Source: Psococerastis gibbosa (Eukaryota; Arthropoda; Insecta; Psocodea; Psocidae). From it: a stretch of DNA of 64,000 nucleotides. Shown piece after piece: positions 19,488 to 61,430 of the stretch (within the stretch, counting starts at the first letter, position 1; every line of letters starts with the position of its first letter). The position numbers were made by a program, and so were the translations under genes. The DNA lies in assembly GCA_963971405.1 (NCBI GenBank), contig OZ020485.1, forward strand, positions 15,190,001-15,254,000, read 5' to 3'. The notes beneath the pieces were generated by a model. It made no database searches. It saw only the letters and a list, made by a program, of their open reading frames with translations, and was not told the DNA's origin.

Positions 19488-20219
19488 CTAGAATGAAAAT
19501 ATTGTATTAAACTCCAACATATAGGGCCTATACAGTAGGTATAGTTATACTGAATTTGGTAAAGGTCTAGTTTAGCTAGTTTAGTCGAATGAAAATGCTT
19601 TTAATATGGAAGGAAAACATCCCAGTAGCAAGGGAATTCATATTTTAAGCAAGGGTTGTCTTATTTACATGCCTCTGACAATGTTCCTTCCATAAAAATT
19701 TTTATGAGCAATTTGTCTCTATACCTGCCCATGCAAAAATTCTAACTAAATTCGGCTGTAACTCAAAAACTATACTTTTCAGATTTTTAATTCTTTCGGA
19801 AATGAGTTTCTTTAAAGCTAAATCAACGAAATAAAACCAAATTTTGTGATTTTATGAGGGGGTAGCAAAACTGATCCTTTACCCTGAATTTTGTTTTTAG
19901 TTATAACAGGCCTGTTTATGTAGAATTTAAGGTACATAAAATAATAACACAGGGTGAGTCAAGCAATTTTGGACAAAGGTCCAAGACCCAACATGAACAA
20001 ATGAGAAAATGGACCACTAGTGTTACTGCACAGATCGGGCTGTATCGCAAATACAATATATAGGCCTAGGTTGTTGTGTTGTTGCTTGGTAGCCAAAGGC
20101 TAATTTTAATCTCGAATAAATGTCTGCTCCCGCTGTACTACAGCTGAAGTTCTTCGCCTATCTTCTTTTTAAAAGACGTAACTGTTCCACACGCACAAAC
20201 AGCTTGACTCAGTCGGTTG

Positions 20220-22241
20220 TATAGCGCTCATCTATCGGAATTTCGTCCAGCAACGACTGATCAAGTGCATAAAATAGTTAATGGTTTGCATGGAAAAAGT
20301 GAAATTCAGCCTTCATGTGATGTAATAAAGAAATGTTGGGATATCCTTGGTGAGCCAGTCACCAAGATAGTTAATACGTCATTGAGTAATAGCGTGGTTC
20401 CCGATGAGTTGAAGATAGCTGTCATAACTCCGATTCCGAAGGTTGTGGGGTCCATCCTTATGTCTGACTTGAGGCCAATAAATGTTATGCCTACCATGGA
20501 TAAGGTATTGGAGAAAGTGGCAATTGAACAGATATTGGACCATGTTAAAAATCGCAATCTACTATCTATTAATCAATCTGGATTTCGTGCCAAACATTCG
20601 ACTGAATCGGCCATTCAGTTAGTTGTTGAAGACTGGAGGCAGGCGGTTGGCAATGGGAAGAAAGTATTGGCTGTATTTCTGGATCTGAAACGGGCATTCG
20701 AAACCATCGATAGGAAACTTGCTTGGGAAGCTGTGGAAGTTGGGTCTTAGAGGACGTGTTTATAAGGCGCCCATTCCATTGACCGGCTAGGGCTATTTCC
20801 AACAACGGTGACGTGGTAGCAGACATTCAAGACTTAGGTAGCGTTTCCAACGACCTCACATTGCAGATTGCAAATGACATTGACGGAAATGTTTGTTTTT
20901 CTTTTTATAGAAATCTATTAAAATGTTTGTAATTAACATATCCCATAAAGCCATTTTTTAATTTTAGTTTGTGTGTGATTTTACTGTATGATCATTGATC
21001 AATTTTAACTATGGCACAGAGGAAAATAAACATTTCCGTCAATTCTGCAATGCGAGGTCTATGGAGACGCCACCTAAGTCTTGAATGTCTGCTACCACGT
21101 CACCGTTGTTGGAAATAGCCCTAGCCGGTCAATGGAATGGGCACCTAACTGGTTGAACAACTATTTAAGTAATCGGAAGCAAAGGGTAAAAGTAAACGGG
21201 GTCTTATCGTCGGAAATCGGCGTGGAACTAGGTGTTGGGCAAGGAACTTGTTTTGGTCCGTTGCTGTTTGTCCTTCATATTAATGACCTTGGGCAAGTTG
21301 TAAGTAAAGTCAAGTTCCATAAGTTTGCGGATGATACTATATACTATGTAGTTGGAGATGATCTTGATGCCATGGTGGTTGATATGAATAATGACCTCAT
21401 GAATGTTGTCAATTGGATGAAAGCGAACAAATTATGTCTTAATGTGAAGAAGACCAAAGCTATGCTTCTGTCAAAGGATGATGTGATGCTACATTCTAGT
21501 GTTATTGTTGAAGGTGAGAGGATTGAGTTGGTAAAGAAATTCAAATACCTGGGTGTAACCCTTGACTGTCGTCTGAATTTTAAAGATCACTTTGACAATG
21601 TCTTACTCATGATTACGAAAAAGATGTCTCTACTTAAGCGACTACGTTTTGTGTTGAATAGGAATAGTAAAAAAATGGTGTTTGATGCCTTGGTGAAACC
21701 CCATGTTAACTATTGCAGTACTTTGTTCAATTATGCCTCCTCTGAGTCAATAAGAAATATTCAAGTGGCAATTAATGTGGGGCTTAGAAATATATTAAAT
21801 GTTCCATTGTATCGGACGTCTGTTGATTGGATGCTTCGAGAACTTGCAATGTTTACCGTACGTGAACAAGTTTTTATTGATACGATGGTTTTCATTTTTA
21901 AAATTATGAACGGGTTACTACCCGAGTACCTACGCTCAGGAATAACTACATTTGGTGAAATTCACACTTATTCCACTAGAAATGTTGGCGACGGTGTGTT
22001 GGTGCTGCAGACGTCGGAATTTTTAAGGAAGAGCATATTCCAAGACGGTCTATCCAAATATAATTCTCTTCGAAGGGATATCAAATTGGCTTCATCCTTG
22101 TTGAAATTTAAAAAATATTTACAAGAGGATGTGCGAAGTGGTTTACTCGATAAGTGGATGACTTAATAGTGAAAGTAGTTGTTTTTTATTAGCATTCTTG
22201 CTATTTCTCCAAATACTACTACTACTACTACTACTACTATT
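20220..22241 (+). mobile_element. Second LINE fragment (RT domain), split by a composite MITE
   Basis: Before the insertion, 20220-20750: LRPINVMPTMDKVLEKV, INQSGFRAKHSTESAI, FLDLKRAFETID (first catalytic Asp). After it, 21150-22166: NWLNNYLSNRKQRVKV, GVGQGTCFGPLLFVLHINDL, KFADDT (catalytic pair at about 21325), MKANKLCLNVKKTKAM, FKYLGVTLD, VKPHVNYCSTLF. It ends with an (ACT)n tail at 22214-22238. No endonuclease; 5'-truncated. A different family from the LINE at 15784 (RT catalytic FADD versus YADD, different tail). Confidence 0.88.
20766..21145. mobile_element. Composite foldback MITE, copy 1
   Basis: Begins GGCGCCCATTCCATTGACCG and ends with its inverse (GGGCACC), flanked by TAA on both sides. 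Each arm contains GTGGTAGCAGACATTCAAGA and then a second terminus-like motif (GGTAGCGTTTCCAACGACC here, decayed from GGCGGGGTTTCC). The centre holds about 170 bp of AT-rich sequence. It interrupts the RT ORF of the LINE. No coding capacity. Confidence 0.88.
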
Positions 22242-23629: not shown

Positions 23630-26220
23630 TTAAGTTTTAGTTATAAACGTATGACAATTTTTTACAACTTGGCCGGTAGTAGGGTAGCCAATAAGTTCCA
23701 CAGCCTTATCACATTCTGCCCAGACGAAATCAGTGTGTTCATGAGACAGTGTAATTTCTTTGTCAGTTTTCAGCTTAGCTAACCAGTATACAACTCTCTT
23801 CATCTTCCCCTCAACTTCATACTGAAACATAAAGCAACACAACCATTGCTTATTTCGTATGTTGAAAAAATCAGCTATAAGCGTTAAAAAATAATGGAAG
23901 TGGCGATAATACTCAATCAATTATTTTAATTAGTACAGAATGATTCCTTTGTAAATATTTACTGTCAATGTTGGCACCCAACGAACTCGGTTCAATGCAA
24001 CGATTTAAAATAGAGTAGATGGCGCTAAGCCATAAGCTAAGTAAGGCTAATAGTGGTGAACCGTAATGTGACGAGAACCTCCAAACTAAATCTCAGTAAC
24101 TATTTTTGACGCTTCATTGTTTACGCTCATCTTACCAGCGTGGTCCAAATAAGATATAAACTGGAGGAGATGGCGCCTAACGATAAGCCACGTGATGGCG
24201 ATAGATGTGAAGGGGGAATATCAAAAGAAGTGTAAAAGGAACGGTTCCAAGATAAAAAATAATAATTGCGATGTCATGACGAAGGGATCACAAAACTGTG
24301 GCCAATTGGTGTGTGACGGCCACATATACATACCAAGCCCGTAGCCAGGATTTTTTCGGGGGGGGGGGGGGGGGGGGGTGGCTGTGCCAACTGAGATCCT
24401 ATCTAGTGTAAAGTTACTCCTTGAGAATTCATCTATCTAGTGTATTCCTTAAAGGTTATGGTGTTACTCGTATATACTATGACAGCATAGGCACATCAAA
24501 AGGCAAATTTTTTGAAGGGTTTAGCTTCGGTGCGAACACAGGTTTATAACATATTGCGGATATGCGGACTAAAATGCGATGATATCATTACGATGGTTTA
24601 GAAAGTATAGAAATAATATTACATTTAACCCGAAGATGGGGCTCGGGGGTCTCCCCCGGGGGAAAAATTTGAAAATATGAACGCAAAATAGTGGGGTTTT
24701 AGGCCTACGCATTTTAATAGCAGTATGGATTTGACAAAGTCTACAAAAGAATGCTTATTCATAAAAATTATAATGCATTTAACCGAAAGAGGGGCGCCCG
24801 GGGGTCTCCCCCGGTGAAAATTTTTGCAAATGTAACTGCAAAACAGTGGGGTTTTACAGCAGGAAAGCTTGCAAAGAGATGCATATTCATATTACTCCAA
24901 ACAGGGGCAAAAGTTTTGAAAAAATAGATGCGAAATAGTGAGGTTTTAAGATTTTAACAGCAGCAAAGTTTATAATTTACTTAGGGAGGCATATTCATGT
25001 TACCGAACGAAGATTAATTTAATTCTCAATTTTTCATTTCGGGGGGGGGGGGGGGGCTGCAGCCCAATAAGCCCCCCCCCCCCTTGGCTACGGCCTTGAT
25101 ACATACTGTATATAGCCACATATGGCATACTGTATATAAAAATGCAGAGACACATTAAGACAAGAGTACGAGCGAAATTTACTGATGTGTTCTAAAAAAC
25201 AGACTAGGGTCCCATTAAAATATAAAATATGGAGTATTCTAAGATTAATGCCACATATTCCCTTCTTCTGCTGAATAAGATTCGAGAAGATGGAAGGATT
25301 TTCTGCAAAGGCGCATATTCCACCAACGTCAATAGTGATATTAAATGTAGTTTTGACGTGGTAGCAGACATTTTTAGTATGTCTTTAATGTCTGCTACCA
25401 CCTCAACACTACATTTAATATCAGTATTGACGTTGGTGGAATAAGCGCCAAACCACACGACAGATTGTGATTAGAAAATGAGAATAAATACGAATAATAG
25501 GGCTCACCAGCATTCTTCTATTTTAACATATGTTTTACCAGTAAGGAACTAAAAGAAACATTATTAATAGATAACGATTTTTCATCCTATAATGTACATA
25601 CTTTAATTTCATCCTTAAAGTCAGATGTTTCAAGATCTTCTGCACCAATACCAGCCTCTTCTTTAGTTTCCCTATATGCAGTTTGCAGTTCCGACTCGCC
25701 ATCGTCTACGTGACCTGAAACGGAAACTTAATAATCCAGTACGGTATGAAGTTAACGGGGGCAGGCCAAAATTAACGGTTAAGGGACGAGATGACATGTT
25801 GTAATTCATTGACCACAGAATAACATATAATAACTAAGACACGGAAGCCGATAGATTTAATTTGTACAATATTAAGGTTTTATTGATATTCAAAGTGCAG
25901 GAAAAGTTAAAGGAGTTGTAGCTACAAAGTGAACTTCAGTACCGGTAGTAAAACATTGATATGCAGTACAGGGTGAAGTGTTCAACGACAAAAAAAAGTT
26001 AAACCACCTGAAGTAAGCAATACAAGGGCTTGTAAAGTTGAAGGCAATATAACCGGTGCTCAGGCCATAGTTTATATTTTATTTGTCTAAAAAATTACAA
26101 ATGCTACAAACCTTTTGGTGGAGTCCAGTGAAATGGTGGATAACTGGCTTTCAGGAGCAGATATTGAATTACACCTCCTATATTCCGATAAATTACAAAA
26201 CCAGCAGCAACTTTACCCAT
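23630..26220 (-). CDS. NUDT2: NUDT2, diadenosine tetraphosphate (Ap4A) hydrolase, complete, three exons
   Basis: Exons 26112-26220 (ATG at 26218-26220), 25602-25714 and 23630-23821, total 414 bases, 137 residues (human 147). Phases agree at both junctions. The N-terminus is MGKVAAGFVIYR, then LLLKAS..FHWTPPKG. The Nudix box follows in exon 2, GHVDDGESELQTAYRETKEE with AGI, matching GX5EX7REUXEEXGU, with the metal-binding glutamates in RETKEE. Exon 3 gives KMKRVVYWLAKL and ITLSHEHTDFVW. The enzyme cleaves Ap4A asymmetrically to AMP and ATP and is cytosolic. Donors are GTTTGT and GTATGT. The gene converges on the COA1-like gene. The hAT-like element and the hairpin at 25310 lie in intron 2. Confidence 0.95.
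24085..24165. repeat. Copy of a repeat also at 27788-27870
   Basis: Shared TAAATCTCAGT and CGCTTCATTGTTTACGCT, followed by CATCTTAC. The two copies flank the 5' two exons of NUDT2 in the same orientation. Confidence 0.6.
24334..25098. mobile_element. hAT-like non-autonomous element with perfect 8-bp TSD
   Basis: Flanked by ATACATAC at 24326-24333 and 25099-25106. Ends are CAAGCCCGTAGCCAGG on the left and the inverse of CAAGGCCGTAGCCAAGG on the right. An 8-bp duplication and a GTAGCCAGG-type end fit hAT. Long G tracts sit just inside the termini (24358-24379, 25041-25057) and a C tract at 25073-25083. Inside, a module with GGGGGTCTCCCCCGG, an A/T linker and AGTGGGGTTTTA recurs about three times (24640, 24792, 24903), the last degenerate. 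No transposase. Confidence 0.85.
25310..25449. mobile_element. Simple hairpin MITE of the variable-arm family
   Basis: A 140-bp near-perfect palindrome. Terminus GGCGCATATTCCACC, a 44-base arm, core TGACGTGGTAGCAGACATT, loop TTTAGTATGTCTT, then the complement back to the end. Flanked by AAA on both sides. Located in NUDT2 intron 2. Confidence 0.85.
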
Positions 26221-27270
26221 TTTGTATTGCTTATTTACATTATTTACAAGTTAAGCATTCGATTTTCGATTCGATCCATCTTATAATATAAGTTTATTTG
26301 TCCTTGAGCCCTTGACGACAAGGCCGACATTTTGTTATTGCCTCTTCTGAGTTCTGCGCCAAAGGAAAAATAGTGGGAAATTTAAAAATGAAGTTAATTT
26401 ATAATATAAATGTAAGAGCAGGCCAGTTTATTACTAATTACATTGTGCCTGCAATAATTGCCGAACGACAATCCTGCTACTAGTCTATGGCGATTATTTT
26501 ATATTGGAAATTCAACGATACAATTATATTCCTGTGGAAAGTGCTGTTCAAAATAATTGTTTCGTTTACATATTAACACCAAGAATTGGTTAATACTATA
26601 GTATGCCCGCTGTAAGACAAACTTTAATACCTATAGAACGGTAAGTTCAGTTCAAATTCTATTGAGTGCATAGCCTAACGAACCTGGACCTACCAATTTG
26701 TATGGTATACTACTAGTACTCCATGCAAGAAACAAATTGTATTTTTATTCTTTGAGCTTGAGCGTCATAATTTCATTACGTAGCCTATGACATTTTTTTT
26801 AATTATAAGGGAGCTTGCTGCTTAAGGCTCAATCGGAGCCCCTCCCCCCTCCCGTGGGACACTAACGCCGCTCGTTTTTTGTATACAAAGTCAAATTAAA
26901 CATTAGATATTTATCGTAGAGTATTTTAGGCAGTAAAAGAAATACTTCCCATTACTAGCACCGATTGCCTTCAATCGTCAGAATTTATTTGTAAAATGAA
27001 CGGTTGGTAAGGACTAAGGCGTCCGGACACCATTGGGCCTTAAGTACATTTTCACCAAAAATAGTACGGCAATCCCTACTAATAAAAATATTTTGAAGGC
27101 TGAGATGAAAACGAGAATAAGATATGTTTCAGTTTTTATTCAATTAAAAATGGTAATATTCACTGTTACAAATGTGGGAGCTACATCTACGCAATCTTTA
27201 AAATGCACGGAAAGCTGCCGTCATCTGGACGAAACTCCTGCTTACCCTAGACTATATAATATTTACTCAT

Positions 27271-27393
27271 TAAAAACGAACAAGTTCAGCTAAATAGAAA
27301 ATATCAGTAAGACTACCAGGATTCAAGTACCAATGTGAGCCTCCATCAAACAATTCAATTATCTGTTGATTTGTAGAAATCACATCTGGCATT
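27271..27393 (-). CDS. Possible terminal exon of an unrecognised gene
   Basis: After an acceptor-like TGCCAG, the minus strand reads an open frame beginning with VISTNQQ, followed by IIELFDGGSHWYLNPGSLTD and then IFYLAELVRF before TAA. The composition is protein-like but I do not recognise the family and have no second exon. Gene identity is open. Confidence 0.3.
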
Positions 27394-27787
27394 TGTATTT
27401 GAAAAGAGAAAAATTTAGACTAAGGGGAAAACTCATTCAGTTTCCAAATGAGCTCAAGTATATTATGGAACATAAAGGTATGACGATCACCTCCTATAGG
27501 TGAATGTGACCGATGCTCAATTTTATAGTAGGCTAAACGGATAGTTAAAAACGGAAGTTACCAATAAAATTTGCACAATAGGCCGTTCGAATTGAGTAGA
27601 ATCAAATGAGTGTAAGGCAGATAGCGAAAATGCGGGGAAATGGCAAAGGAAAGGTGACTGAGTTTGGCGGGTTCGAATACAAGAAAAAAGCAAATGTACA
27701 ATCCAGCAGACAGGGCAGACACGTTTTGCACACTTGATCTGCCAATAAAATAGCTTTATTATGACTGTTATTAGCTTATGACCTCCA

Positions 27788-27870
27788 ACATAAATCTCAG
27801 TCTCTACTCTTTGCCGCTTCATTGTTTACGCTGCAGATGCCCATCTTACAAGCCTGTATAGAGTCCATTC
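27788..27870. repeat. Second copy of the 24085 repeat
   Basis: On the minus strand it begins ATGAAGCGGCAAAGAGTAGA and stays open (27523-27822). The copy at 24085 has a stop in the same frame. It may be a duplicated first exon or simply a repeat. Confidence 0.5.
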
Positions 27871-29670
27871 TCCATTCAAGTTATTGCATCATCGGTCACA
27901 CTGAGGCTGATAGTGATTAGTCACACTGGACCTAAATCGATTATTTTAAAAGTACGCTGCCTAGTTTTGACTCTTGAACTAGGCGTAGCAGTAGATTACC
28001 GTGAGAAAGGACTAAATTGTAGGCCTATATGAAGAGTAGGATGGGGTTGTTTCAGAAAATATTATCGTATTGAATGTTACCTAGATAGGCAGTTACAGTT
28101 CTATATTTAGGTTACATCCAGCCCACGAATATTTAAATGTCAACCAGTCAGAGCACACTTTGGGATTTTCCATAAGACAACAAATTCCGTCGTGGCTGGC
28201 TGGTAAATTACCCGAAAAATTCTCTTTGCAGGAACGAATAGGCCTACCTTATCTCAGATGTAGGTATTCTGGGCGTGGTATATTCGATGAGTAGACTATG
28301 AGTTATAGAGGTTTAACATGCTACGTGTAACAAAAAAACTATGTTACAGTAAGTTAGGCTATCGTACATTAAATTTCGAAGTAGCCTACTCGGCAAGTTT
28401 AAACTATATTGTTAATGGGTTATACCAATGTAAGAAATAGTTCATTTTATGCCCGCTATAGCGTACGAAACAACTCCATAGAGCCTACTGTAGGAGTTGA
28501 AAGAAAGTTTTGGTTATCAGCCTAACAACTTAAACACTGCTCGAGGCAATATGCCCCGAGCTAATTTGTATCCGATCCAAGGATGCGAAAAAATACTGTA
28601 GTGTGCTGTCTTGCGCTATTAAATCAATATTTATACGGTACTTTTATGAGAAGTTCACTAACTACCGGTAATCTAACAAATTGCCTCAAGACGACACTGA
28701 TTCGTTCGCAACCTTAGGTCACAAGTTAAGGACAGAATTAATAGATATAAATACATATACGGCACTAACTTTTCCAGTTACCCTCTTATGTTTCCATCTT
28801 AAGCTTTCAACGTGCAACAAATTCAACAAAATTAGCGTAACTTACTTATAGCCTAATAACAACCTAAATACTGTCGAGTGCGCCGCTCAATTCAACCATA
28901 ATAATATACAGTACAATGATATTACTTTTTTAACATTATTAAATAGCCTATGAATTCTTCTAAAATCACTTTCTCATATACATGTCTCTATAGTTTTAAC
29001 GCAAGCGTCGTCTTTGATACATTTTACCACCTCATAGAGGCCTACTTATGGCCTACATAAATTTGTGGAGTTTATATTTTTCTAGGCTAATTTGACAGTC
29101 AATTTTTTTTAGGACCACAAGCCTGAGATGTGTTTCTATAGTGCTCAATTCCATTTAACTTAGTGTTGGAAGCTACCTACTGAATCAATAAGAGATTTTT
29201 AAACGCATTAAACAGCCCCAACCGATATTATTAGGGTTTGACGTGCTCTGGTAGCAAATTAGATATAACTTCCCGCCAAAAAATATATTGCATATTGCCA
29301 CGTCTTCTATTATCAGCCAAGAACTGAAGAACGGTTGAGGTTAACCCAGAAGAAATTATTGGCGGGAGCGAAAGCTCCGCCGTAACGTATTTTTTTAATA
29401 GCACATAGCAGTATGATTATCGAGGTCTCAATATGATGGTGATTTATACTCCGGTATCGGCTCCTGGGGTAAGTTAGGGGCCGGTTGACTATTTAAGTAA
29501 ACATTACCTTCTACAATACGATAGTTATTAGGTAGGTAACATCAACCAACCAGGCTTATTTGTTTAACCACGAGTATGGAAAACTTTGCTATAAGGAGCA
29601 TAGAAACCCACCTCCTTGCTTGAAGAATACGGCCCTGATTAAGTTTACTACAGTATATATGCAATATAGA
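27871..29670. other. No gene or strong repeat seen
   Basis: AT-rich sequence. I looked for exons with splice sites on both strands and found none worth listing. Confidence 0.4.
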
Positions 29671-29769
29671 TATCATGGTCAGTACCGTATAGAGAACTTC
29701 TCAAATGGAAATCTTGCGTATATAATGGGGAACTTTTCTATATAGAAAATGCAACATGGAGCGGCTTCG

Positions 29770-29912
29770 TTGTGATTGGCGTGGCGCATCCCCATAATTA
29801 TCTTATGGAAAGAGGTGCAGTTTTTAGTTTGTGCGCGTGGCATACCCCTGTTGTAGGAGAACAGCACCATAAGATGATGAGTTGGATATGAGCCACACCA
29901 ATCACAGCAAGG
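29770..29912. repeat. Foldback with about 38-bp arms
   Basis: GTGATTGGCGTGGCGCAT...CTTATGG at 29773 is matched by the inverse of CCATAAGATGATGAG..CCACACCAATCAC at 29868-29908. An open frame on the minus strand (29798-30241) overlaps it and is not recognised. Confidence 0.55.
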
Positions 29913-30309
29913 TGGAGATCCTCCAAGTTAGATTTTATGTTAAGAAAGTTCTCCATTCCAATTTCCAATATGACAGCCTTGATTTTTAATGTTTGGACAA
30001 ACTGACAAGTTAGTGTAAGATGGTCCACTGATTTGTTCGGGTTTGCCCGCTCCGGTCCACAGATTTTCAATATGTTTTTAATGCGGTTCGAACGGGCCAC
30101 AATTCGCGAGTCAAATCCATCACTATGTACCTTTTGTTTTTTAGCTTCTTCAGTGGCTTCACTGCGCAAGACTTCCATTCCGACAACACAAATTTTTAAG
30201 TGCCCTATTAGAAAGGGAATGTGCGATAAATGATCATTCACACAACAATCAAGTAAGGTATATTGTAAAAGAGAAAGTATAAACGATATTTTAATGTCCC
30301 CGTTTACCG

Positions 30310-30440
30310 AATAATGGACTGTGTAAGTGTAATGCGATCAGCAGTCATCTTACTTAATGATAAACGAAAGCTCGCTTCGCATGCGTAGCCTGTTTATCAT
30401 TTTTAAGATGACTGTTGCTCCATTAACACTTGCAGAGTAT
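30310..30440. repeat. Imperfect foldback, arms about 48 bp
   Basis: Inner arms AGCAGTCATCTTACTTAATG/..AAGATGACTGTTGCT and outer GTGTAAGTGTAATG/CATTAACACTTGCAG. Probably a small MITE. Confidence 0.6.
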
Positions 30441-30640
30441 TTTTCTCCTGTGACTTATGTCTCATACTGAAGGTGACCATTTGACCTGGTATTCGATCTC
30501 AGCGTCTTTTTCTAATGCTAAAAATTATTTTTTATTTAGAAAATATCATTTAAGAATTTTTCACATTGTTAGCTTAGGCCATAATTTATAAATAATAGAA
30601 ATTACAATTATTATTTCAGGTCAATGTTTCAAACATTTTC

Positions 30641-30673
30641 CCCGAAGGAGACCCCCGGGCCCCCTGTTTGGGG
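30641..30673 (-). repeat. Fragment of the hAT-like element's GC-rich module
   Basis: Reverse complement of CCCCGAAGGAGACCCCCGGG corresponds to the GGGGGTCTCCC module of the element at 24334. Confidence 0.45.
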
Positions 30674-32129
30674 TGAGTTCTAAGTCATTGTCTGCAAAAT
30701 CTAAATTTTGCTTTTGTCTGAAATTTTCTATTGAAGCATATATAGGCTATCAATTTTATGGGCTAATTGAAGTATGTTTAAAGAGCCTAGAGTTACGCTG
30801 CACTTGAAAGAAAAATACAGTAAGTGTACTGTATATTTTGTGAAAAATAATTCTTGCAGGAAAAATATTTTCCGCCATAAGGAGAAAAACACGGCTGCTA
30901 GGAATAATGCTGACCACAACATACCAAATATAGGGCAGTCGTAAAGAAGGAGGATCCTCTACCAATCCTCAGGTCTTGATCTTCAATGACTGATCGCATC
31001 ACAGCGTTATTTTCTATCATTGTGACAATTAGTAATTTTTACTAAAAATTAGCGTATAGGTCCACGGTTTACATATTCCTAAATATCAATGAAGTTAACG
31101 AGGACATTAACATTGCAAAAGTGGTGAACTGCCAAAATTTATCAATAGATTAGGCCTAATTTATATAATATCGTATTTAAACCATCGCTAGATTTCCTAA
31201 ATTAATTATTGCTTTAAAAGTAGCATAGTTGCGAAAACAATGAAATATTCCTATTCCTGTTAAGGGCATTACTAATCGTCATTTTGTTCATATATGGCTC
31301 GTTTTAATAATTAAAAAAAAGGTTCTTTAAAAATGACCAGCACATCGTAACATTGTAAACTCGTATCTACCGGCAGGCCGTTATTTTTCCACGCATGTCA
31401 AAAGAATTGAGGTTGGTAGATTTTGAATAGATAAAGCATTTCAAGAACCTTTAGAGCAGAAGTCATTGAGATCATTCATAACAGAACTAAATAGTTTTCT
31501 ACTTAAAAATAGGCAATTTAAATTTATCAAGATGCAGCAAGAAGCATTTTTGACCATTTATGAAAAAAGGAACAGTAGCGACATCAAATTATAGGCTACA
31601 GCCAACATTTGGATCCATGGTGTGTTGGATTGGATCATAAATAGAAAGTCAATGGGAATCTATTAAATGGATGACTGAGCTGAAATTTTGGAAATACTTG
31701 TTTAAGCTAAATTTAGATTTTAGATAGGTATGGACAAAACTTGGCTGCTAGATATTTTTATGAGGCCTAAATAGTTTTCATAGAAGCGAAACTTTATTCT
31801 GTATTTTTAGTTTCACATCTATGACAATCTGTATTTTTTTATTTTTTATTATAAAATTTAATCTAACAACGAAGTTTTTGCCCCGATGCCCCGTTCGTTT
31901 TATTGGCTTATATTATGCAGAATATTTCAGCTGAACCGGTAAATTAGCCTATTTGAAATATAAGTTCTCATCTTAATTCAATTTATTTCCGCTTTCGAAC
32001 TAAATAATAATGTCGTATGTTATAATGCAGCAACTCTGTCTGCATTTTTTCGATTCCCCTCTCCAAAAATATCCTTGGCATACCTGCACATGGAGGGACC
32101 ACGTGACAAAGCAAGAGTGCTAGAGGCTA

Positions 32130-32410
32130 TTAAAGAAGAGTGACAGCTGCTACCTCATATAAAAAGTAGAAGAGCTAAATGGGAAGGGCATTTATTAAGA
32201 CAGATAAATCTGGTACACACTATCAATGAGGGCACAGTGGAAGAAACCAATAGAAGAGGGCGGTCGAAGAAGGAATTCATGGATCAACTGATGCAGGACG
32301 CAGGAGCTCGAAGGTACCAAGAGCTGAAGAGGAAGGCGCAGGACCGAGAGAGCTGGATGATGATATGTAGGGACTTGCCTAGTAGTGACCTCAGAAGAAC
32401 CGGCACATAA
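32130..32410 (+). mobile_element. LINE 3'-end fragment A (endonuclease-RT tail type)
   Basis: Frame reads RRARWEGHLLRQINLVHTIN, GTVEETNRRGRSKKEFMDQ, ELKRKAQDRESWMM to TAA near 32410. It is like the C-terminal tail of RTE-like LINEs (WxGHxxR...RGRxxxxW/F.D...A.DRxxW). 5'-truncated. Confidence 0.6.
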
Positions 32411-32469
32411 TCTAGACGTGAAACTACAACCGGTTGAATGCGGCAATGAACACGCTAAAGCTTGCTTAT

Positions 32470-32870
32470 CTATCAAGCAGCCTTAAGCAGGACTTTAGCT
32501 AGTTATGCAATACAAATTTCGGAAGAGTTTTTGAAAACAACATTTGGAGAATCCGAACCAACGAAGAAATCCACCAACTCTTCGGCTCGCCAGACGTCAC
32601 ACAAATACTACGAAGCAGAAGGCTCCAGTGGATGCGACACGTCGTCCGTATGCCAGCAGAAAGAACAGCAAAAGCAGTATGGATCCCAACAGAAGAAGAC
32701 CTTTGGGCCGTCCGAGACGACGCTATGGCGACCAGCTAAAGCAAGATGTGCAGGAAGTTGGCCTTCGGGCCGATGAGTGGCGTGGTCTAGCGAAGGACAG
32801 GATCCGTTGGCGTGGTGTTGTGAATGCGGCCAAAAGTCTCCCAGGGCTGACAGCGCCAACTTAAGTCAAG
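32470..32870 (+). mobile_element. LINE 3'-end fragment B, frameshifted
   Basis: First frame: RIRTNEEIHQLFGSPDVTQI, RSRRLQWMRHVVRMPAERTA. It shifts to NRRRPLGRPRRRYGDQLKQD, VGLRADEWRGLAKDRIRWRG and stops TAA near 32864. This is the same tail logic as fragment A but another family. The frameshift lies at about 32690. Confidence 0.75.
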
Positions 32871-33292
32871 TCTAGTCATGCAATACAATAGTTTCCCAGC
32901 TAGAAGTGATTATTTCCATTCAGATAGCCTAAGTAAACAAAAATTTTAACTTTAATTTGGAACCTTAATTAGGCTCATAATACGGTAAATAATATATAAC
33001 ATAAGCATACACACGCAACTGTTCCTTTTTAAACCATAAAAGACCCCTTCATAACAGATACAATCGCCTAAACAAGTACCGGTTCGGTAATCACTAGGCC
33101 TACATTCCTAAAAATATTTTTATAATCCCAGAGATTAGAGTCCCGCAATCTAAGGTGAAAATTCCTGCAATGGCCTACATTACACGGATGGACATCTCAA
33201 GGAAATCAGTGTGGATATACATAGTTAACCATATAAATCAGTTTCTTTTTCTGAATCTAAACCGGTCCAGTTTGCGGGTTTGGCATCCTCTG

Positions 33293-33508
33293 CTACTTTG
33301 GCTTTTTGTAAGCCGGTTCGCCCTCCTTTTTGTAACCTGAGGTTTTCCCGTCAAGTCCCTCTTTCTTTAGCTCAGTCAGCCCCTGGACTAATATAAGTGC
33401 TGCTTTTTTTCGCATTAGTCCGAGAATATCATTCGTATCCTTAGCGTAGCCATTCAACAATCGTCCCACAAACTTGCCAACACGTATAGGACTTGCAAGT
33501 GTTAGCAC
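33293..33508 (-). CDS. Possible terminal exon, unrecognised basic protein
   Basis: Minus strand, after CTGTCAG acceptor: NVLTLASPIRVGKFVGRLLN, DTNDILGLMRKKAALILVQG, then KKEGLDGKTSGYKKEGEPAY and KKPK stop. Lysine-rich end. A second open stretch upstream (33534-33716, AVGTVCSGNTVLLVGISDL) may be its neighbour exon. No family assigned. Confidence 0.35.
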   Translation of the reverse strand: MLTLASPIRVGKFVGRLLNGYAKDTNDILGLMRKKAALILVQGLTELKKEGLDGKTSGYKKEGEPAYKKPK

Positions 33509-33719
33509 ATTCTGACAGGCTTTTTGGAAGTGTCTATATCATGCATCGGTCTTTGAAGCCATCGAACATATAGCAGTAGGACATACAGGTATATATATAT
33601 ACTGTATATATAGTGTTGAGACTGTTGATTTTCACATGTTGCTGCAAGTCAGAGATTCCAACAAGAAGCACTGTGTTACCGGAACAAACTGTGCCGACGG
33701 CTGACTTATCAATCAATTA

Positions 33720-34915
33720 CAGTTAATGTAGTATAATTATTAATTACACTCAAAAATCCATAAGCCCATTTGGGAAATATTACAGGGAAACCCCATGTTT
33801 AATAATGTTTTAGTCTATGTGGATTTCCAAGCAGATTTCCATACGCGTAATTTGGAATTTCACGGGCAACGAGAATCAACTAAAAATGTTCTCACGAACC
33901 ATTTTTAGCGAGAAGCATATAGTGAAGCTACAATAATAATACCACAGAAAATTTAAGGAGAGTTTGCACAGACTAGGTAAAATTGGTCTAACTATAAGTT
34001 GAAAGATATTTTGTCTAAAAACTTTCACAATGCATTCAATAATTTATAGTATAGTAAATGAACGCAACAGGAAACTTTGAAAATCCAAATGCGGATAGAT
34101 ATGAGACGAGGTTTACAACTCAATTTTTTATATGATATTTTTTAGCTAATATTTTTTTCTTAACAAAACACTGTACGTAATAGATTTTTTAGCATTTTAC
34201 AGTTTAATAATGCATGCTACTTTCACTTAGCAATTAATATTTCTAAGTCTAATTAACGTCATCACAAAATTCATTCATTCACAATTTGAAATTTGATGCG
34301 TTTCAGCATAGCAACTGCTATTGTAAATTCCTTAAAAGGGTATAACCTGGGTAAACAAATTTGATTAAAATCAAAAAATTGGTAACGACTATGCTTTCTA
34401 AAAATAATGTAACAACAATAAAATATATATATTTCATAGTTTACACTCTTATGATACAGTTTTATTTTTTCTTAAGCTAAAACTTTGTAAAGTGTTGGAA
34501 GTTTCCATCGACTACCGGTAGCTAGATTTTTTTTACATGTCCGCCATGTTAGTTTAGGACTAGAAGGCTACATAATTCATAAAGAAACTTAGCGGATAGA
34601 GAAACAGACTGTAAGTCACAAAATGCCGCCTAATGAGAGGGTCGTGAAATCTGGATTGTTTTCCTTTTTGTGGGATGGAAATGACGTCACTCAGAATAGG
34701 TTCACAAAACTACGCTGATTTGACCCATGCGTCACAGCAGAAAACCCCAGTAAGTTGACAGAGGCGTATTGTGCAAGTGTTACGCGAATAATTGTCATCT
34801 TACCAATGATATTTGCATGACGTATGGGCCAAGTCAGAGTATTGTTACTATAGCAAGTGAACGAAGTAACTGACCGCGCACATAATCTAAATGCACATAG
34901 ACCGCTCGCGCAACA
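33720..34915. other. No feature seen
   Basis: AT-rich, several (TA)n stretches, no exon supported. Confidence 0.4.
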
Positions 34916-34921
34916 GTGGAG

Positions 34922-35098
34922 CTAGAGTTCTATGTAGGAGAGATGGGCATTCGCTTCCCGCCATAACTATATTTTTTGAATTTGTGGGGCCACTCGCCAC
35001 GGATCTGATGGCCAGTTATTGAAAAACGCCCCAGGGTTCAAAAAAATATTTTTGGCGCGCACCAATATCCCCTGTTCTGCATACAACTCTAGTAAAGC
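34922..35098. mobile_element. MITE of the TAGGAGAGATGGG family, copy 1
   Basis: Left AGAGTTCTATGTAGGAGAGA and right inverse AGAGTTGTATGCAGAACAGG form imperfect inverted repeats of about 40-50 bp. Related elements at 51935 and 55549. Confidence 0.6.
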
Positions 35099-35459
35099 CA
35101 TTTCGTATTCAGAAAACAACATGGCGGAAAGGCAAACAAATGCAAAAATTTTAATCTCGCCTCCCGGTATACATAAGATATAATTAAGCTATCAACAAAA
35201 CACTGTTTATAATTTACTCAACGCGGTGTCTAAAACCTAATCTTCCTACGCCCCATTAAAAATTATCGATACGCTGTTTGAGCTACGTTTCTTTTTAAAT
35301 TAGCAACTAATTACCATTCAACGGCTATTCAAGCCGTTTAGTATGTGTGGTCTACAAGCCACTCCGACATTGTTATAACAAAGTTCTAGTTCGGTCGTTC
35401 AATGTTCCAATAGTCGCTAGCGAGATGATTAAACAGTAGAATCCGGGTTGATCGACCAC

Positions 35460-35600
35460 GGCTTATCATCCCGGATTCAACTATTTAATCATCTGCCTCG
35501 TGAAAGCCTTTTGCAATTAAATAAGTCACTTGCATTGTTCAAAAATAGGCTACTCATTCATACGCTTCAATATGCCTGGTTATATACAGTATATAAATAA
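35460..35600 (+). mobile_element. Short LINE C-terminus-like fragment
   Basis: Frame reads RIQLFNHLPRESLLQLNKSL, ALFKNRLLIHTLQY before TAA, like the distal tail (NxLPxxL....SxxxFKxxL) of LINE RT proteins. Short, so tentative. Confidence 0.4.
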
Positions 35601-36857
35601 TTTTTTACAGGCGCTTTTAAAAACGCTTCAATCAGCTTAAAACACGAAATCGAAAATTTTGACTATTACAAAGCTTTCTTTACCTATTAAAGTAGTAAGA
35701 GGGAAACAATAATTTAGGGCAATGTGAGAATTTCAAAAATTTTGAAATAACATTGCCTGGACTCAGTATTACATTATATTATAACAATTTTTTTGGCTCT
35801 CTCAAATCGGTTTGCTCCACAGTCCTCTCCTCCTTTATAACCTTTGGTTATTGTTAAAGGTAGGTACCTGCTATAACATTAAAAAAACGGGCTGGAAATT
35901 CATCCAATGCGGAATTAAAGATAATTTTTTTTTTGAACAATGAACGAACGTCACAGTTTCAACAAGTTGTTATAACCCGTCAATGTACTGTCCACTTCCA
36001 AATAGCACTGAGCATGTATCACACTACTTCGCTAGACAAAGAAGGGAACATCACCGAAGAAAATGTCGGAAAAGACTTCTGTTCAGGGCCGGGCCCCACT
36101 CTTAGAAATGTCTCGATATGAAATAACGGACAGCACCGCCGTGTTCCAATGTATAGCGGTACCGTCCAGTATTCCTTACAAAGATATTTCTAAGGGCGGT
36201 GGTGGGCAAGGCCTTTAGACCGAACCATACTTCTCGGACATTATAGGCAAGTTTTTTTTTCAAAAGTGGTGACATCATTATATCAATACATTTAATTTTG
36301 CATGGAAAATGGGCCGAAATTATTCAATTATAGGCCATGATAGTACATTAAGCTGGCAAAACACAGCCACAAAAATGTAAATTTAATCTCACGATAATTA
36401 AGTTTAATTTGTTAACAAAAAGTACCATTTCTTTTCTTCTCGTTGTAGGTTCAGCTGAGATTTGGACGGTACGAACGGTATCATATGGAGGGAGTTATAT
36501 ATAGGGTATATACTTACGATAACTATTCGTGAATATAAAAGAAAGAACACGGAAGAAATGATGGGAATAATGTATGACTTACTTTGTGCATAAATAAATG
36601 AATTGAAGGTTAAGAAAAACCAAGCTAGATTTGTTGTTTTTGAATGTAGGCAGAGGATCGCTTCAATCTTACGGTAAATTCAATTGAAAATGTTAATTGT
36701 GTATACTACATGGGGTCTAACAATTGAAATCATGTGGTCTCAAATCCACACTAGTTTTTGGTCAAGAGAACTTGACGTTTTTGGAAAGTATCCGTTTTTA
36801 TAGACCTATTTCCAACGATTTGTTTGACAAGGCAATAAAATTCAATCATCAGCCTAA

Positions 36858-36986
36858 GGCGGGGTTTCCATTGACCTTGTCTGCGAAAGCTACCGTGATA
36901 GCAGACATTTTTAGACTGTCTTTAATGTCTGCTACCACGTCAATAGCACGGTAGCTTTCGCAAACAAGGTCAATGGAAACCCCGCC
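36858..36986. mobile_element. Simple hairpin MITE of the variable-arm family
   Basis: Terminus GGCGGGGTTTCCATTGACC, variable arm, core (left side damaged: GTGATAGCAGACATT; right side intact AATGTCTGCTACCACGTC). Flanks TAA and TTA. The left arm has lost about 11 bp next to the core. Confidence 0.85.
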
Positions 36987-37572
36987 TTATCGAACTTAAG
37001 AAAGCGCGGGTATGAATCCCATTAGCAGCAACTAGCAAGTCAATGATAAGAACAACCAAAGGCATTTCCGGTAAAATTTTTATGGTAGTGCTGTTGTTTA
37101 TGGCAATCTCAACGTGAAGGTTTATTTTCATAATAAAAACATTTATAGCTAATTAGTATTAAATCGCGCAACTCATCACACATTTTACATGCCATTGGCT
37201 GTAGGAAGCCATACCATTTGTAATTTTATGCACAAAGTTAAATTCATAAAATACATGAAATGCCTCTACTAAAGCATAGCTTTGAATTAATGTCACCACT
37301 TTCGTTTTTAATGGGTAATCGCAGTGTTTGCATAATGCTGAAAACTATTTTACTATCACTAAAAGTACGTTGGTTAATAGTTTAAAGAGGTCGTACTATA
37401 AAATGTTTTAAAGAACACGCGGGTTAACGCTATAAATTACTTTTTTATTAAATAATTAAAGAGAGTTGAAATGAAGTGCACATTTCTGGTGTAAACTCCA
37501 GTCTAGACAATGCCACTAAAGTTAATAGTCATTACAATAAAATCTAAAACTTTCAAGTGACTTTTGTTTATA

Positions 37573-37602
37573 CCACTAAGGTTCCCACCTTAGTGGTTTT
37601 CT
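37573..37602. repeat. 10-bp-arm hairpin
   Basis: ACCACTAAGG, six-base loop, CCTTAGTGGT. Perfect arms; role unknown. Confidence 0.5.
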
Positions 37603-37669
37603 TTAAGATTTTTGGACGGCACCCCTATGCATTGGAACATGGGGGTGCCATGCTACTCCATTAAAGAGA

Positions 37670-37854
37670 CTTCGGTGGCAAGTTGGTAGCGTGCTTGCAC
37701 TTGTGCGAGTCTCAAAACACCTTGGGATCGGAGACGTGTCGTAACTCGATACAAGTACCTATTAAGTTACTTAGTGAGGCGATTGAAGAGGTTAATCGGG
37801 TACATTCATTAAGTTGTTTGTATGCAAATTACCTAAAGTTATTTAAAAAAAAAA
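37670..37854 (+). mobile_element. tRNA-derived SINE (family 1)
   Basis: Head GTGGCAAGTTGGTAGCGTGC, body with GGAGACGTGTCGTAACTC and GATTGAAGAGGTTAATCGGG, and an A tail at 37840-37854. Same family as 7360 and 40005. Confidence 0.75.
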
Positions 37855-38039
37855 AAAAACAGTCAGAATATGGTCAGAATTTTTTACCGTGCTATGGTTA
37901 TGAAGTAAGGCGGCACCCATATGTTACAATGCATAGCGGGGCATCCAAAAATACTAAAGAAAACTATCCAAACGTTGGAGGAATCGGGTCTAAAGCAGGT
38001 GGGGCCGTTCCAGTATTCCTCATCTATTAAATAAATAAG

Positions 38040-40000
38040 TTAAATAACTTAAATAAGTTTATTTTTATTAAGGTACGGCTCCTGGAGAAAATTTAATGTG
38101 ATTTCAATTATTCAATCGAATTAAAATAATAAGCCTGCTTTCGGTAAGTACTCAACCATTTGTAAAACGAAAGCGACAGCAATTTTGAAAAATTAGGCTA
38201 AAAGACTTATTGGGATACAATATAGCCTACATTAAGCCTAAGGAAAAGAATAGCCAAGTTTGGCAAAGGAAATAATATAAACCATGGAGACTGATATGGT
38301 CAATAAAAGAATGGCGTGGTTCGAGCCTTCACCTTCTGTTTTCAGGAGGTTTGAGTCATAAGTTTTGAAACCAATTTTTATTAGCTACCGTTCTGCTGTT
38401 GTTAAAAAAGCTATTAGTTTGTCATTAAACTTATAAGTATTGTCTATACTAGGGGAAATACCAAGAAATGTAACAAGGTAGGCATAAAATGTGCTTAATT
38501 GCTTTTCGTTGTAGTCAGCATTAGGAAAATTGCGATCTGCTTCCGATTTCATTTCCAATTATCACAACAACAAAAAAAAATAAGATTCACATTAGTTTTC
38601 GTTTGTAATCAGGACGGATTTTGAAGCAAGCGTCCACTCCAAATCACCGACTTAGAAGCCAATTTTTATATAGTAGTAATACTAGTATAACGGTTACAAT
38701 TGTGAGGTTCCAAGGAGTAGGCCAATAGTTATTGAAGTTTCAACATCGATGATATTATAGCCTATACAGTATACTTTTGGCGTCCAATCGCCTTAAATGG
38801 AATGAAACAAAAAAGTACGTTAACCAACTTTTCGCTTCATTATAGTCGAGACTATTTTTAATTTTATTCTCAAATACGATTTTTTTTTTAATTCTTTGGA
38901 ACAATAAAGTTCCAATTGAATTATGTAAATGTACAATCATCGCAAAGAATTATTGTCCCAGATTTTTCAGGTACGAAAAAAATCGGTCACTGTTATCATA
39001 AACAAAAACAAACCTGAAAGTTTACCATGTGGATTCCATTGTGTAGGTTAGGACTCAAGACATACGGAAACTCTCACTCTATCATAGTGGTGGGAAACGG
39101 ACCTGCACTGAAAGGCTAAGGCTTAAAAAAATATAATGTGTTTATTGGAACACGGTACACAGTTCGATAGTAATTACGTTTCATGTTGTGGAATCCATTT
39201 TTCGCATTTTCATATCCAAAGGATATGAAACAACGTATTTCAAGAGAAAAATTGTTTTAACAGCTTGAAGCAATATACTGTATATATGTATATCCACCAC
39301 ATTGTGTACTATTTTTAACGCTTATTTATTGCAAAAATCGAAATGTAAACATTCAATGTTGATCACAATAATATTTACTCTATAACCTGGAATTAGAAAC
39401 TAAAAAATATTTTGCCTTTAAGCCTTAAAGTGCAGGTCAATTCCCCATCACAATGGCGGTGTGAGAATACCCGTATGTAAAGAGCCCTATTGTAGCTACC
39501 CGTGAATGCTTAGTCAACACAACAAGAAATAAAAAATGTTAACAACATACCCAAGCAATGCAATGGTATTTGTGCATTTTTCATTGAATAAATCTTGATG
39601 GATGAGTTTCTAAAGATAAAACGGGCTAAACAATAATTATAAGCGATTCCCAATAAATAACAATGAACATTAATCCGACATGCTTGCAATCAGTAATTCT
39701 GCCTCTGCTTATCTGCTTAAATACAGTCTTCTATACAGATGACTTAGAAAGAGGAAATCATGTACAAAAATGACAGCTATGCAATAGGCAGCTTATAGAG
39801 AACAAATAAAATTAACTCGAAAAAAAATGAAATATAATAATCAAGGAATTCGTTGGATCTACTGGGAAAAATCTTCTTGAATGAGACATTTACCAGAAAA
39901 CGTTTTCTCTAATGAGCCACATAAATCATTGGCCCTCAGCACACGGAACCATTGCAAAAAACTGGTTAGTGACTAGTCCGGGTAACTTTCTGGGTAATCG
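38040..40000. other. No feature seen
   Basis: Only a small palindrome (TTCATATCC/GGATATGAA near 39212-39232). No exon supported. Confidence 0.4.
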
Positions 40001-40004
40001 ACTT

Positions 40005-40165
40005 CGATCGATGGCAAGGTGGTAGCGTGCTTGTACTTGTGCTATGCAATCGGAGACGTGTCGTAACTCAACACGGGTACTAACCGACAGAGGCGACTAA
40101 AGAGGTCAATCGGATGCATTCATTAAATTGTTTGTATGCGATTAACCTTTTATAAATTTTAAAAA
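40005..40165 (+). mobile_element. tRNA-derived SINE (family 1)
   Basis: Head TGGCAAGGTGGTAGCGTGCT, GGAGACGTGTCGTAACTCAA, GTCAATCGGATGCATTCATT and an A-rich end at 40158-40168. Confidence 0.75.
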
Positions 40166-40779
40166 AAAATATGTAATGGGACGCCGCACATGGCGCTACT
40201 GATCGCAGACGCGTCTGTAGTGGTCACACAGCAGTTAGTAACCAATTAGCTGGCGACTCGGCATGCCGGGTCGCCTCTTGATTTTAATTTTTCAATTTCC
40301 TGATGAACGATCAAGGCCTCAACCTGTTGTTAGTGGTCTCCATGACAACACTGGAAAAGCTACAGATTGTGGTCCCTAGTGAGTTTGCCTCGGGTGTGAA
40401 GCCGCGTAACAATGACTAATGTGTCATTTAGTGACCCAAGTGACCAACCAGTTCAGGTTAGTTCCAATGGCTCTGTGTGCGGCAAATTGAAGAAAGAGAA
40501 GTAGTTGGTATGTATTGCCTCTCTCAAAGCCACTGAGTGAATCCGAAGCTTCAATGATTAGCGAAAACAACAAAAATTACATTACACAATACAACACAAC
40601 ACTTAACAGCCAAACTGAAAGAATATGTGCGCGTTGGAAATGAAACAATCATGTCAAACCCTGCAATGCGAAAACTTGGATAATTCAACTCGTAAAAGCT
40701 TAGTTTATAAAAAAAGTCAACTCTAATGCCACGTCAAGAAATATACTGCATGAAAATTACTACACGCCGCCAATTCGTT

Positions 40780-40905
40780 GAAAAATTTGTCATGGAAGCA
40801 AATGGGTTGATGCAAAACCACGGAGTCTAATTCAGCAGATTTCCGTCGCTGGCTTTGTCACTGAGCTCACCCAAGTGCAGGATTTTCTACTCGACACTGA
40901 CTGAT
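40780..40905 (+). repeat. Half-element related to the MITE at 4996
   Basis: AAATTTGTCATGG...GTTG....AGTCTA.TTCAGCAGATTTC.GTCGCTG matches 5038-5100 in order. Only one arm plus centre is recognisable. Confidence 0.55.
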
Positions 40906-40950
40906 TTAATTGGCTACCCGGTTTTTTATAAATTCAGTTCCCGCAAGTAA

Positions 40951-41092
40951 GGCGGGGTTTCCACATACATCAATGGTCAATGAGAAATATGAAATTGACG
41001 TTTTAGCAGACATTAAAGACATACTAAAAATGTCTGCTACCACGTCAATTTCATATTTCTCATTGACCATTGACGTATGTGGAAACCCCGCC
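40951..41092. mobile_element. Simple hairpin MITE of the variable-arm family
   Basis: A 142-bp, almost perfect palindrome: GGCGGGGTTTCCACATAC, a 45-base arm (with termini), core (TGACGTTTTAGCAGACATT on one side, intact on the other), complement, CCCCGCC. TAA on both flanks (40948-40950 and 41093-41095). The loop is the reverse complement of the loop at 25310. Confidence 0.9.
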
Positions 41093-49345: not shown

Positions 49346-49740
49346 AGAGCAGATTCCACCGACCGGCTAGGGCTAAATACAAAAACGGTAACGTGGTAGC
49401 AGACATTCAAAACTTAGGCGGGGTTTCCACCGACCTCGCATTGCAGAATGCAAATGACATTGACGGAAATGTTTGTTTTACCCTATGCCATAGTTAAAAT
49501 TGATCAATGATCATAGAGTAAAATCACAAACAAACTTACTAAAATTAAAAAATGGCCTCATGGGATATGTTAATTACAAACATTTTAATAGATTTCTATA
49601 AAAAGAAAAACAAACATTTCCGTCAATGTAATTTGCATTCTGTAATGCGAGGTCGGTGGAGACACCGCCTAAGTCTTGAATGTCTGCTACCACGTCACCG
49701 TTTTTGTATTTAGCCCTAGCCGGTCGGTGGAATTGGCGCC
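49346..49740. mobile_element. Composite foldback MITE, copy 2
   Basis: Right end GGAATTGGCGCC, left end damaged (AGAGCAGATTCCACC). TAA both sides. Outer arm GACCGGCTAGGGCTA, core GTGGTAGCAGACATT, CAAAACTTA, then inner terminus GGCGGGGTTTCCACCGACC and inner arm TCGCATTGCAGAATGCAAAT, with the complement in mirror order. Confidence 0.9.
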
Positions 49741-49792: not shown

Positions 49793-50160
49793 GGTGCCCA
49801 TTCCACCGACCGGCTAGGGCTATTTACAAAAACAGTGACATGGTAGCAGACATTCAAGACTTAGGCGGGGTTTCCACCGACCTCGCATTGCAGAATTGAC
49901 GGAAATGTTTATTTTCCTCTATGCCATAGTTAAAATTGATCAATGATCATACAGTAAAAAAACAAACAAACTAAAATTAAAAAATGGCGTCATGGGATAT
50001 GTTAAGTACAAACATTTTAATAGATTTCTATAAAAAGAAAAATTCTAATTTCCGTCAATGTCATTTGCATTCTGTAATGCGAGGTCGGGAATGTCTTGAA
50101 TGTCTGCTACCACGTCACCGTTTTTGTAAATAGCCCTAGCCGGTCAATGGAATGGGCGCC
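49793..50160. mobile_element. Composite foldback MITE, copy 3
   Basis: GGTGCCCATTCCACCGACCG to GGAATGGGCGCC, TAA both sides, 52 bp from copy 2. Inner right terminus is shortened (GGTCGGGAATGTC), losing about 18 bp. Confidence 0.9.
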
Positions 50161-60718: not shown

Positions 60719-61430
60719 AGAACTGCGGAATGGTTGATTGATGGCTATCTGGGACATCGTCTCAAACCGCTGCACCACAAGTACAGTGTCTGCTAAATCC
60801 TCTACGTATGTACTCTATGACAAGATTAGTCTTGCTAGACATGTTAGCACAGCTACAGACTTAGGTGCCCTTTCCATTGACCGGCTAGGGCTATTTCCAA
60901 CAACGGTGACGTGGTAGCAGACATTCAAGACTTAGGTGGCGTTCCCACCGACCTCGCATTGCAGAATTGACGGAAATGTTTATTTTCCTCTATGCCATAG
61001 TTAAAATTGATCAATGATCATACAGTAAAATCACAAACAAACAAACTAAAATTAAAAAATGGCTTCAGGGGATATGTTAATTACAAACATTTTAATAGAT
61101 TTCTATTTAAAAAAAAAAAAAACATTTCCGTCAATGTCATTTGCAATCTGCAATGCGAGGTCGATGGAAACGCTACATAAGTCTTGAATGTCTGCTACCA
61201 CGTCACCGTTGTTGGAAATAGCCCTAGCCGGTCAATGGAATGGGCGCCTTAGCTACAGTTCACAAACCCATTCGGTTAGACAGTTGTGTTGCGGTGATAA
61301 CATGTCTAGCAATACGAATTTTGTCAACGAGCATAGAAGTAGAGGATTTAGCAGACACTGTGCTTGTGGTCCAGCGGCTTAAGACGATCCCTCAGATAGG
61401 CATCAATCAACCATTCCGTAGTTGTGACCG
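60719..61430. repeat. Inverted pair of a tRNA-like repeat around composite MITE copy 4
   Basis: 60719-60844 is the inverse of 61298-61430: shared TAGAGGATTTAGCAGACACT, CTTGTGG, CAGCGG, GACGAT, CAATCAACCATTCCG. The right copy continues to a B-box-like GGTTCAAATCCCACC (61444). The MITE sits near the centre. Confidence 0.75.
60864..61248. mobile_element. Composite foldback MITE, copy 4
   Basis: GGTGCCCTTTCCATTGACCG to GGAATGGGCGCC, flanked by TTA both sides (60861-60863, 61249-61251). Outer arm, core GTGGTAGCAGACATTCAAGA, inner terminus GGTGGCGTTCCCACCGACC and inner arm, as in copies 1-3. Confidence 0.92.

Follow-up and report, generated by a model that had tools for sequence, protein, structure and literature searches.

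The commonest branch in our sample of hairpin transposons from the insect Psococerastis gibbosa, here called type D, appears to have arisen through an identical change of 24 nt in the two arms of an otherwise nearly unaltered element. The starting point was a stretch of 64,000 nucleotides (contig OZ020485.1, positions 15,190,001 to 15,254,000; referred to as the window), which holds three simple hairpins with arms of types A, B and C as well as four composite elements with type D arms, in which another palindrome, with ends of the same type, lies between CAAGACTTA and TAAGTCTTG. These elements are miniature inverted-repeat transposable elements (MITEs) sharing a terminus and a core, GTGGTAGCAGACATT. 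We assign a probability of about 60% to the reading that ordinary subfamily growth in MITEs inserted at TAA/TTA was accompanied by a symmetric replacement of a 24-nt block, which was copied from arm to arm and founded type D.

The arm block that separates type D from type E

The hairpins are real and belong to a huge family of non-autonomous DNA transposons. At up to one mismatch, the 409-Mb genome contains 19,281 and 19,407 core half-sites on the two strands (26 and 27 for a reversed-pattern control), and 1,645 exact core pairs enclose a loop of 8–36 nt (control 0). The D block alone gives 7,819 and 7,838 matches (control 0). Our sample comprises 109 paired elements taken from the window, from loci around listed core matches and from loci around listed core pairs, with all elements outside the window coming from the first 15 Mb of contig C1; a terminus was recognised in 213 arms, and both termini in 95 elements. 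Most elements were picked by an exact core, and the interior played no part in the selection. In the matches listed, D arms are the commonest, as 42 of 72 exact plus-strand cores (contig C1, 0.592–4.254 Mb) have the exact D block 29 nt before them.

Composites with another arm, type E, were found via exact matches to the same core and link following a non-D arm end. Six pairs gave 12 half-elements, ten of them with an E arm (TCTCATTGCAGAATGCA... or a close variant) and two with unrelated or degraded left arms; four E pairs were read whole, and their arm blocks differ from each other by 0–5. The comparison of both types benefits from the inner insert, which serves as a yardstick inside the same element and therefore allows an arm-specific jump to be separated from general divergence. 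Outer arms are 53.6% and 51.5% identical between D and E, as against 91.0% and 90.8% among D copies, whereas the inner insert retains 86.8% identity between the types (D–D 91.5%, E–E 90.2%) and the core link 97.4% and 98.4%.

In a tree of the interior built from 41 D and 4 E composites, rooted by choice on an E copy, the 41 sampled D copies form one clade (support 0.95) with the E copy E_L141 as nearest neighbour (0.86). The first D branch is a single copy, L097, while the other 40 are grouped with a support of 0.93. L097 combines the D block with an outer end like that of E. Its interior is 93.2% identical to E_L141 and only 89.4% to the best D copy. With one mismatch allowed, the L097 arm type gives 2,164 and 2,168 matches, among which the D3 form, differing by a single letter, is counted as well. 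Between E_L141 and L097, each arm changed at 12 of the 24 block positions; the positions and the new bases coincide between the arms, and the length remained constant. The outer 19 nt show one and three changes, the 28-nt core and link none, and the interior 10 changes in 239 aligned bases, with 6 further columns gapped. If the block changed at the rate of the interior, at least 12 changes in 24 positions would have a binomial probability of 5e-11. The arm block has thus changed unlike the rest of the element, and alike on both sides. In consequence, arm replacement copied to both sides, which the first-pass annotation had suggested for whole arms, is supported once, for type D and for part of the arm; a symmetric block replacement has probably happened, with a smaller block than proposed, and a general habit of exchanging whole arms is not supported.

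A gradual origin of the D arm would assume fast change in the arms, with selection for pairing or for transposase binding preserving the hairpin, and with the D intermediates, whose blocks would lie between TCTCATTGCAGAATGCACTTACGT and GGCTAGGGCTAAATACAAATACGG, now extinct. It could draw on a weak residual similarity between the D and E blocks, on the intermediates that join types A, B and C (see below), and on a group with the motif AAATACA (two copies including L097), whose arms are nearer to E (30/43 and 28/43 matches, left and right) than those of D1 are (25/43 and 24/43). However, 12 of 24 changes in the block beside 10 of 239 in the interior, between nearest neighbours, speak against it, and so does a search with a pattern admitting both states at four sites: the 100 matches listed of 1,595 comprise, by eye, 87 D-like and 13 E-like ones, with only single-letter E variants between them. 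We therefore regard ordinary divergence as an unlikely origin of type D.

Less unlikely, but still doubtful, is a conversion of the interior, by which a D-arm MITE with the same core received the interior of an E composite with breakpoints in the shared core, so that no copying from arm to arm would be needed. The 28-nt core link on each side offers homology for such an event, and a related case is Galileo, where one central region occurs with terminal inverted repeats (TIRs) of three subfamilies and a conversion with two inner breakpoints is discussed in the excerpted account (PMC3573991). The exchange nevertheless requires a D-arm element lacking the composite interior. All D arms seen belong to composites: among 100 matches listed, 34 pairs of D blocks span 273–354 nt. 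Nor did a simple hairpin with D arms appear, since in a listing of 100 out of 216 D-arm ends with three A/T behind them none begins, by eye, with the TTT of the simple loop. The donor would have to be extinct or rare, and L097 keeps an E-like outer end beside its D block, which also argues against a transferred interior. An empty target of the inner insert, i.e. the link palindrome with a gap of 0–14 in place of the insert, gave 0 matches genome-wide when exact matches were counted.

Gradual subfamilies and the probable symmetry of founders

Apart from type D, most of the arm diversity is of an ordinary kind: point changes, slippage of short motifs and deletions in one arm have produced subfamilies that are joined by intermediates. 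The exemplars of A and C differ by 13 edits, A and B by 18, and B and C by 19, with a mean of 18.1 for shuffled blocks; the A–C distance corresponds to the 1% point of the shuffled blocks. Among the 213 sampled arms, A is connected to C by steps of at most 3 edits and to B by steps of at most 8, some of them via shortened arms. The distance from terminus to core lies between 25 nt, in a single case, and 52 nt, most often at 47–49 nt, and of the elements with two recognised termini 72/95 have equal arms and 11/95 differ by at least 5 nt, including the window copy at 36858 (left arm 37 nt, right arm 48 nt, a difference of 11 nt). The constant arm length that had been claimed is therefore not maintained, and the statement that arms of different types do not resemble each other fails for A and C. 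It stands for D, whose arms are 11 edits away from the nearest other sampled arm, a distance also reached by shuffled blocks (12.7 on average for the nearest one, minimum 5). Gradual intermediates or widely varying arm lengths had been named as the findings that would count against replacement; both are present for A, B and C, so that we dropped the idea for these types, while type D remains separated by its 11-edit step.

Symmetry was also counted over ten subfamily steps: in 56 columns the two arms underwent the same change, in 29 a single arm changed, and in 4 both arms changed but differently. For the step from E1 to D1 the respective numbers are 18, 0 and 0, with 1.7 columns changed alike expected if the arms were independent. 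Resident copies, on the other hand, show little or no correction from arm to arm. No excess of within-element similarity was found for D1, A48, A48T, A49 and C49 (3,569, 5,000, 1,429, 5,000 and 1,027 of 5,000 permutations, respectively). The D2 copies have a weak excess (within-element distance 1.55 vs 1.82; 196/5,000), the pool of all D copies gave 0/5,000 with its subtypes mixed, and the A47 class has a clear excess (31/5,000; 2.43 within vs 6.69 between elements), perhaps due to substructure. An ongoing homogenisation, in which resident copies keep repairing their own hairpin, could account for the values of A47, D2 and the D pool; given the five classes with no excess, the possible substructure of A47, and the fixed differences between arms, we consider it very improbable. 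Such differences occur in C elements (GTTTTAGC on one arm, GTGGTAGC on the other) and in D, where the arms of 13 of 30 scorable elements differ as A versus G, and the GTTTTAGC difference of the window C copy recurs in four further C elements (L005, L021, L081, L103). Symmetric subfamily steps together with the lack of excess in most resident classes make it seem that symmetry is set when a founder originates and is not restored in place.

With regard to the mechanism, we propose that a transposase of PIF/Harbinger type probably moves these MITEs in trans and that founders of new subfamilies usually carry their changes alike on both arms. For type D, the parent would have been an E-type composite in which new sequence took the place of a 24-nt block in the middle of each arm, the outer end, core and interior being nearly kept. 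A multi-base change would arise in one arm and would most likely be copied onto the other by a template switch within the hairpin during replication or repair synthesis, and the new palindromic copy could then found a burst. Mutation by template switching is known from imperfect inverted repeats, where it homogenises the arms and leaves clustered changes, as outlined in excerpts of the literature (PMC8604942, PMC8794818), and a clustered multi-base change with both arms matching, at 12 of 24 positions on each, is what we observe. Judged from sequence, the change most likely came about by template switching between arms or by conversion from a lost relative, of which we favour the former without claiming proof. 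A broader version, which we put forward only tentatively, is that hairpin MITEs in general gain subfamilies in single steps, a block entering one arm during transposition or gap repair and the hairpin copying it to the other. Type D, with about 7,800 D-block matches per strand, would then stand for one such step and a burst, perhaps as an escape from small RNAs directed against the old arm.

Several points weigh against arm-to-arm copying as the origin of type D. Complete sequences were read for only four E composites and a single copy of the L097 type, and lineages since lost may have held the steps from E_L141 to L097. In ungapped comparison, 9–12 of 24 positions of the D and E blocks are alike (shuffle p 0.01–0.11), which leaves some room for fast gradual change. 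A change that begins in one arm predicts, for a short time, copies with one D and one E arm, and none is present among the 45 aligned composites; neither was a donor of the D block found. Besides, two of the ten subfamily steps rest on one decayed D3 copy, the conservation of the core is partly a product of our own selection because most elements were picked by an exact core (E composites by exact core and link), and a transposase partner with these ends was not found among the DDE_Tnp_4 loci read, which belong to three families.

Window copies, insertion site and transposon class

The annotated hairpins and composites of the window (Table 1) were recovered at their places. At up to three mismatches the core has 20 matches in the window, compared with 1.25 on average and at most 4 in 100 shuffles, and each simple arm is complementary to its own partner (A 94%, C 95%, B 96%). 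The distance from the first base to TGACG(T) is 44 for A, 44 for B, 45 for C and 43 for D, equal to the earlier counts. The genome has genes of long interspersed nuclear elements (LINEs) and others of eukaryote type.

Table 1. Hairpin elements of the window and the gene interrupted by one of them.
Feature	Positions	Strand	Remarks
Simple hairpin MITE, type A arm	25310..25449	.	loop TTTAGTATGTCTTT; inverted arms 25310-25372/25387-25449
Simple hairpin MITE, type B arm	36858..36986	.	flanks TAA / TTA; inverted arms 36855-36900/36944-36989
Simple hairpin MITE, type C arm	40951..41092	.	one core half is GTTTTAGC; inverted arms 40950-41014/41029-41093
Composite MITE, type D2 arm	20766..21145	.	TAA on either side; in LINE reverse-transcriptase gene
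Inner palindrome of the 20766 composite	20837..21074	.	bounded by CAAGACTTA and TAAGTCTTG
Composite MITE, type D3 arm (AAATACA)	49346..49740	.	
Composite MITE, type D1 arm	49793..50160	.	right end of inner palindrome missing
Composite MITE, type D2 arm	60864..61248	.	flanks TTA / TTA
LINE reverse transcriptase, first part (host of insertion)	20217..20750	+	RVT_1 positions 5-89
Open reading frame starting within the MITE (host of insertion)	21081..22166	+	continues with RVT_1 positions 100-205

Equal 3-bp flanks, mostly TTA or TAA, were present in 58 of 95 elements, compared with 29.4 expected if the two sides were independent. Together with the inverted arms, the number of core half-sites and a length of about 130–400 bp, which leaves no room for a transposase, this identifies the elements as MITEs. 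TAA or TTA stands on both sides of 68 elements, 47 of them with matching flanks, and the composite at 20766 splits the RVT_1 domain of its host LINE between positions 89 and 100. By reading of the sequence, excision of 380 bp plus one TAA rejoins the reading frame; since only 3 bp restore the frame, we rejected a two-base TA duplication with AGGCG ends for this insertion. The 3-bp TAA/TTA duplication and the interrupted LINE show that these MITEs duplicate TWA on insertion, like PIF/Harbinger, and suggest membership of this type, whereas the 7-bp duplication of Galileo, from the P superfamily, does not fit. PIF/Harbinger transposons have a second, Myb-like protein besides the transposase.

The remaining 21 of the 68 elements have non-matching flanks (16 TAA..TTA and 5 TTA..TAA), exemplified by the type B copy of the window. 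Mutation alone seems too slow to generate them, and recombination between copies is one possibility.

As candidates for an autonomous partner we considered transposases with a DDE_Tnp_4 domain, for which 150 matches were scored in the genome. The 20 loci L106–L125 all represent one transposon, 98.5–100% identical to L118 in long alignments, and carry a hairpin of this MITE family downstream of the transposase domain. This transposon was rejected as partner because the hairpin is a passenger, flanked by TTA on both sides and lying inside the region of homology, which continues past it; its presence in 20 of 20 loci indicates that the MITE was spread as such a passenger. At one locus from each of two further families, with proteins of 384 and 382 aa, no TAA/TTA-flanked ends of this kind occur within about 2 kb. 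Elsewhere on contig C1, two pairs of E-type ends in opposite orientation lie about 2.45–2.5 kb apart (6772214–6774714 and 8306612–8309026), and these are possible longer relatives.

Other repeats accompany the hairpins. The 60864 composite is enclosed by arms of 137 nt with 85% complementarity (60721–60857/61287–61423) and may thus lie within the loop of another MITE; just upstream of the composite, a further inverted repeat has arms of 144 nt with 98% complementarity (59854–59997/60213–60356). Four sampled A-type hairpins (L034, L039, L040, L044) have similar flanks, gttggtccccttt.. on one side and, in three of them, aaaatcatatata.. on the other, and are therefore probably copies of a larger hairpin-containing repeat. 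Three B-type hairpins in a row with similar flanks and a spacing of about 0.4–0.6 kb (L033:501–1544) probably reflect a local tandem duplication.

Comparison with known systems

The type of element is known, as foldback or snap-back MITEs are likewise almost wholly self-complementary; to our knowledge, a symmetric block replacement on a constant interior has not been reported for them. A small symmetric block change set against a nearly constant interior of the same element looks new, and no description of it was found in the open-access literature searched, judged from titles and abstract openings. The findings bear on a question that concerns MITEs as well as hairpin RNAs, namely how long hairpin arms continue to match as their sequence evolves. 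Should new subfamilies originate by template switching, transposon trees built from arms or TIRs would mislead, and new arms would alter the small RNAs obtainable from the hairpins.

The closest parallel is Galileo of Drosophila mojavensis, which also has long arms and one central region joined to arms of different subfamilies, and for which an exchange has been proposed as founding new subfamilies (PMC3573991). According to the excerpts of that account, its arms measure hundreds of bp, its target-site duplication 7 bp, and chimeras with two unlike arms exist, whereas we deal with a 24-nt block in a 43-nt arm, a 3-bp TAA/TTA duplication and no chimera between D and E among the aligned composites. 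Quasi-palindrome mutation by template switching likewise yields clustered multi-base changes that make or keep arms complementary (PMC8794818, PMC8604942, PMC3820800); the excerpted reports describe it for RNA genes and yeast, while here it would explain founders of transposon subfamilies, as deduced from sequence with no parent and offspring observed. With PIF/Harbinger and Tourist-like MITEs, finally, our elements share the 3-bp TTA/TAA duplication, the association with related MITEs and nested insertions (PMC2213677). The autonomous PIF/Harbinger elements in the excerpts of that study have TIRs of 14–25 bp, in contrast to the arms of about 65 nt that make up nearly the whole of the simple hairpins described here.

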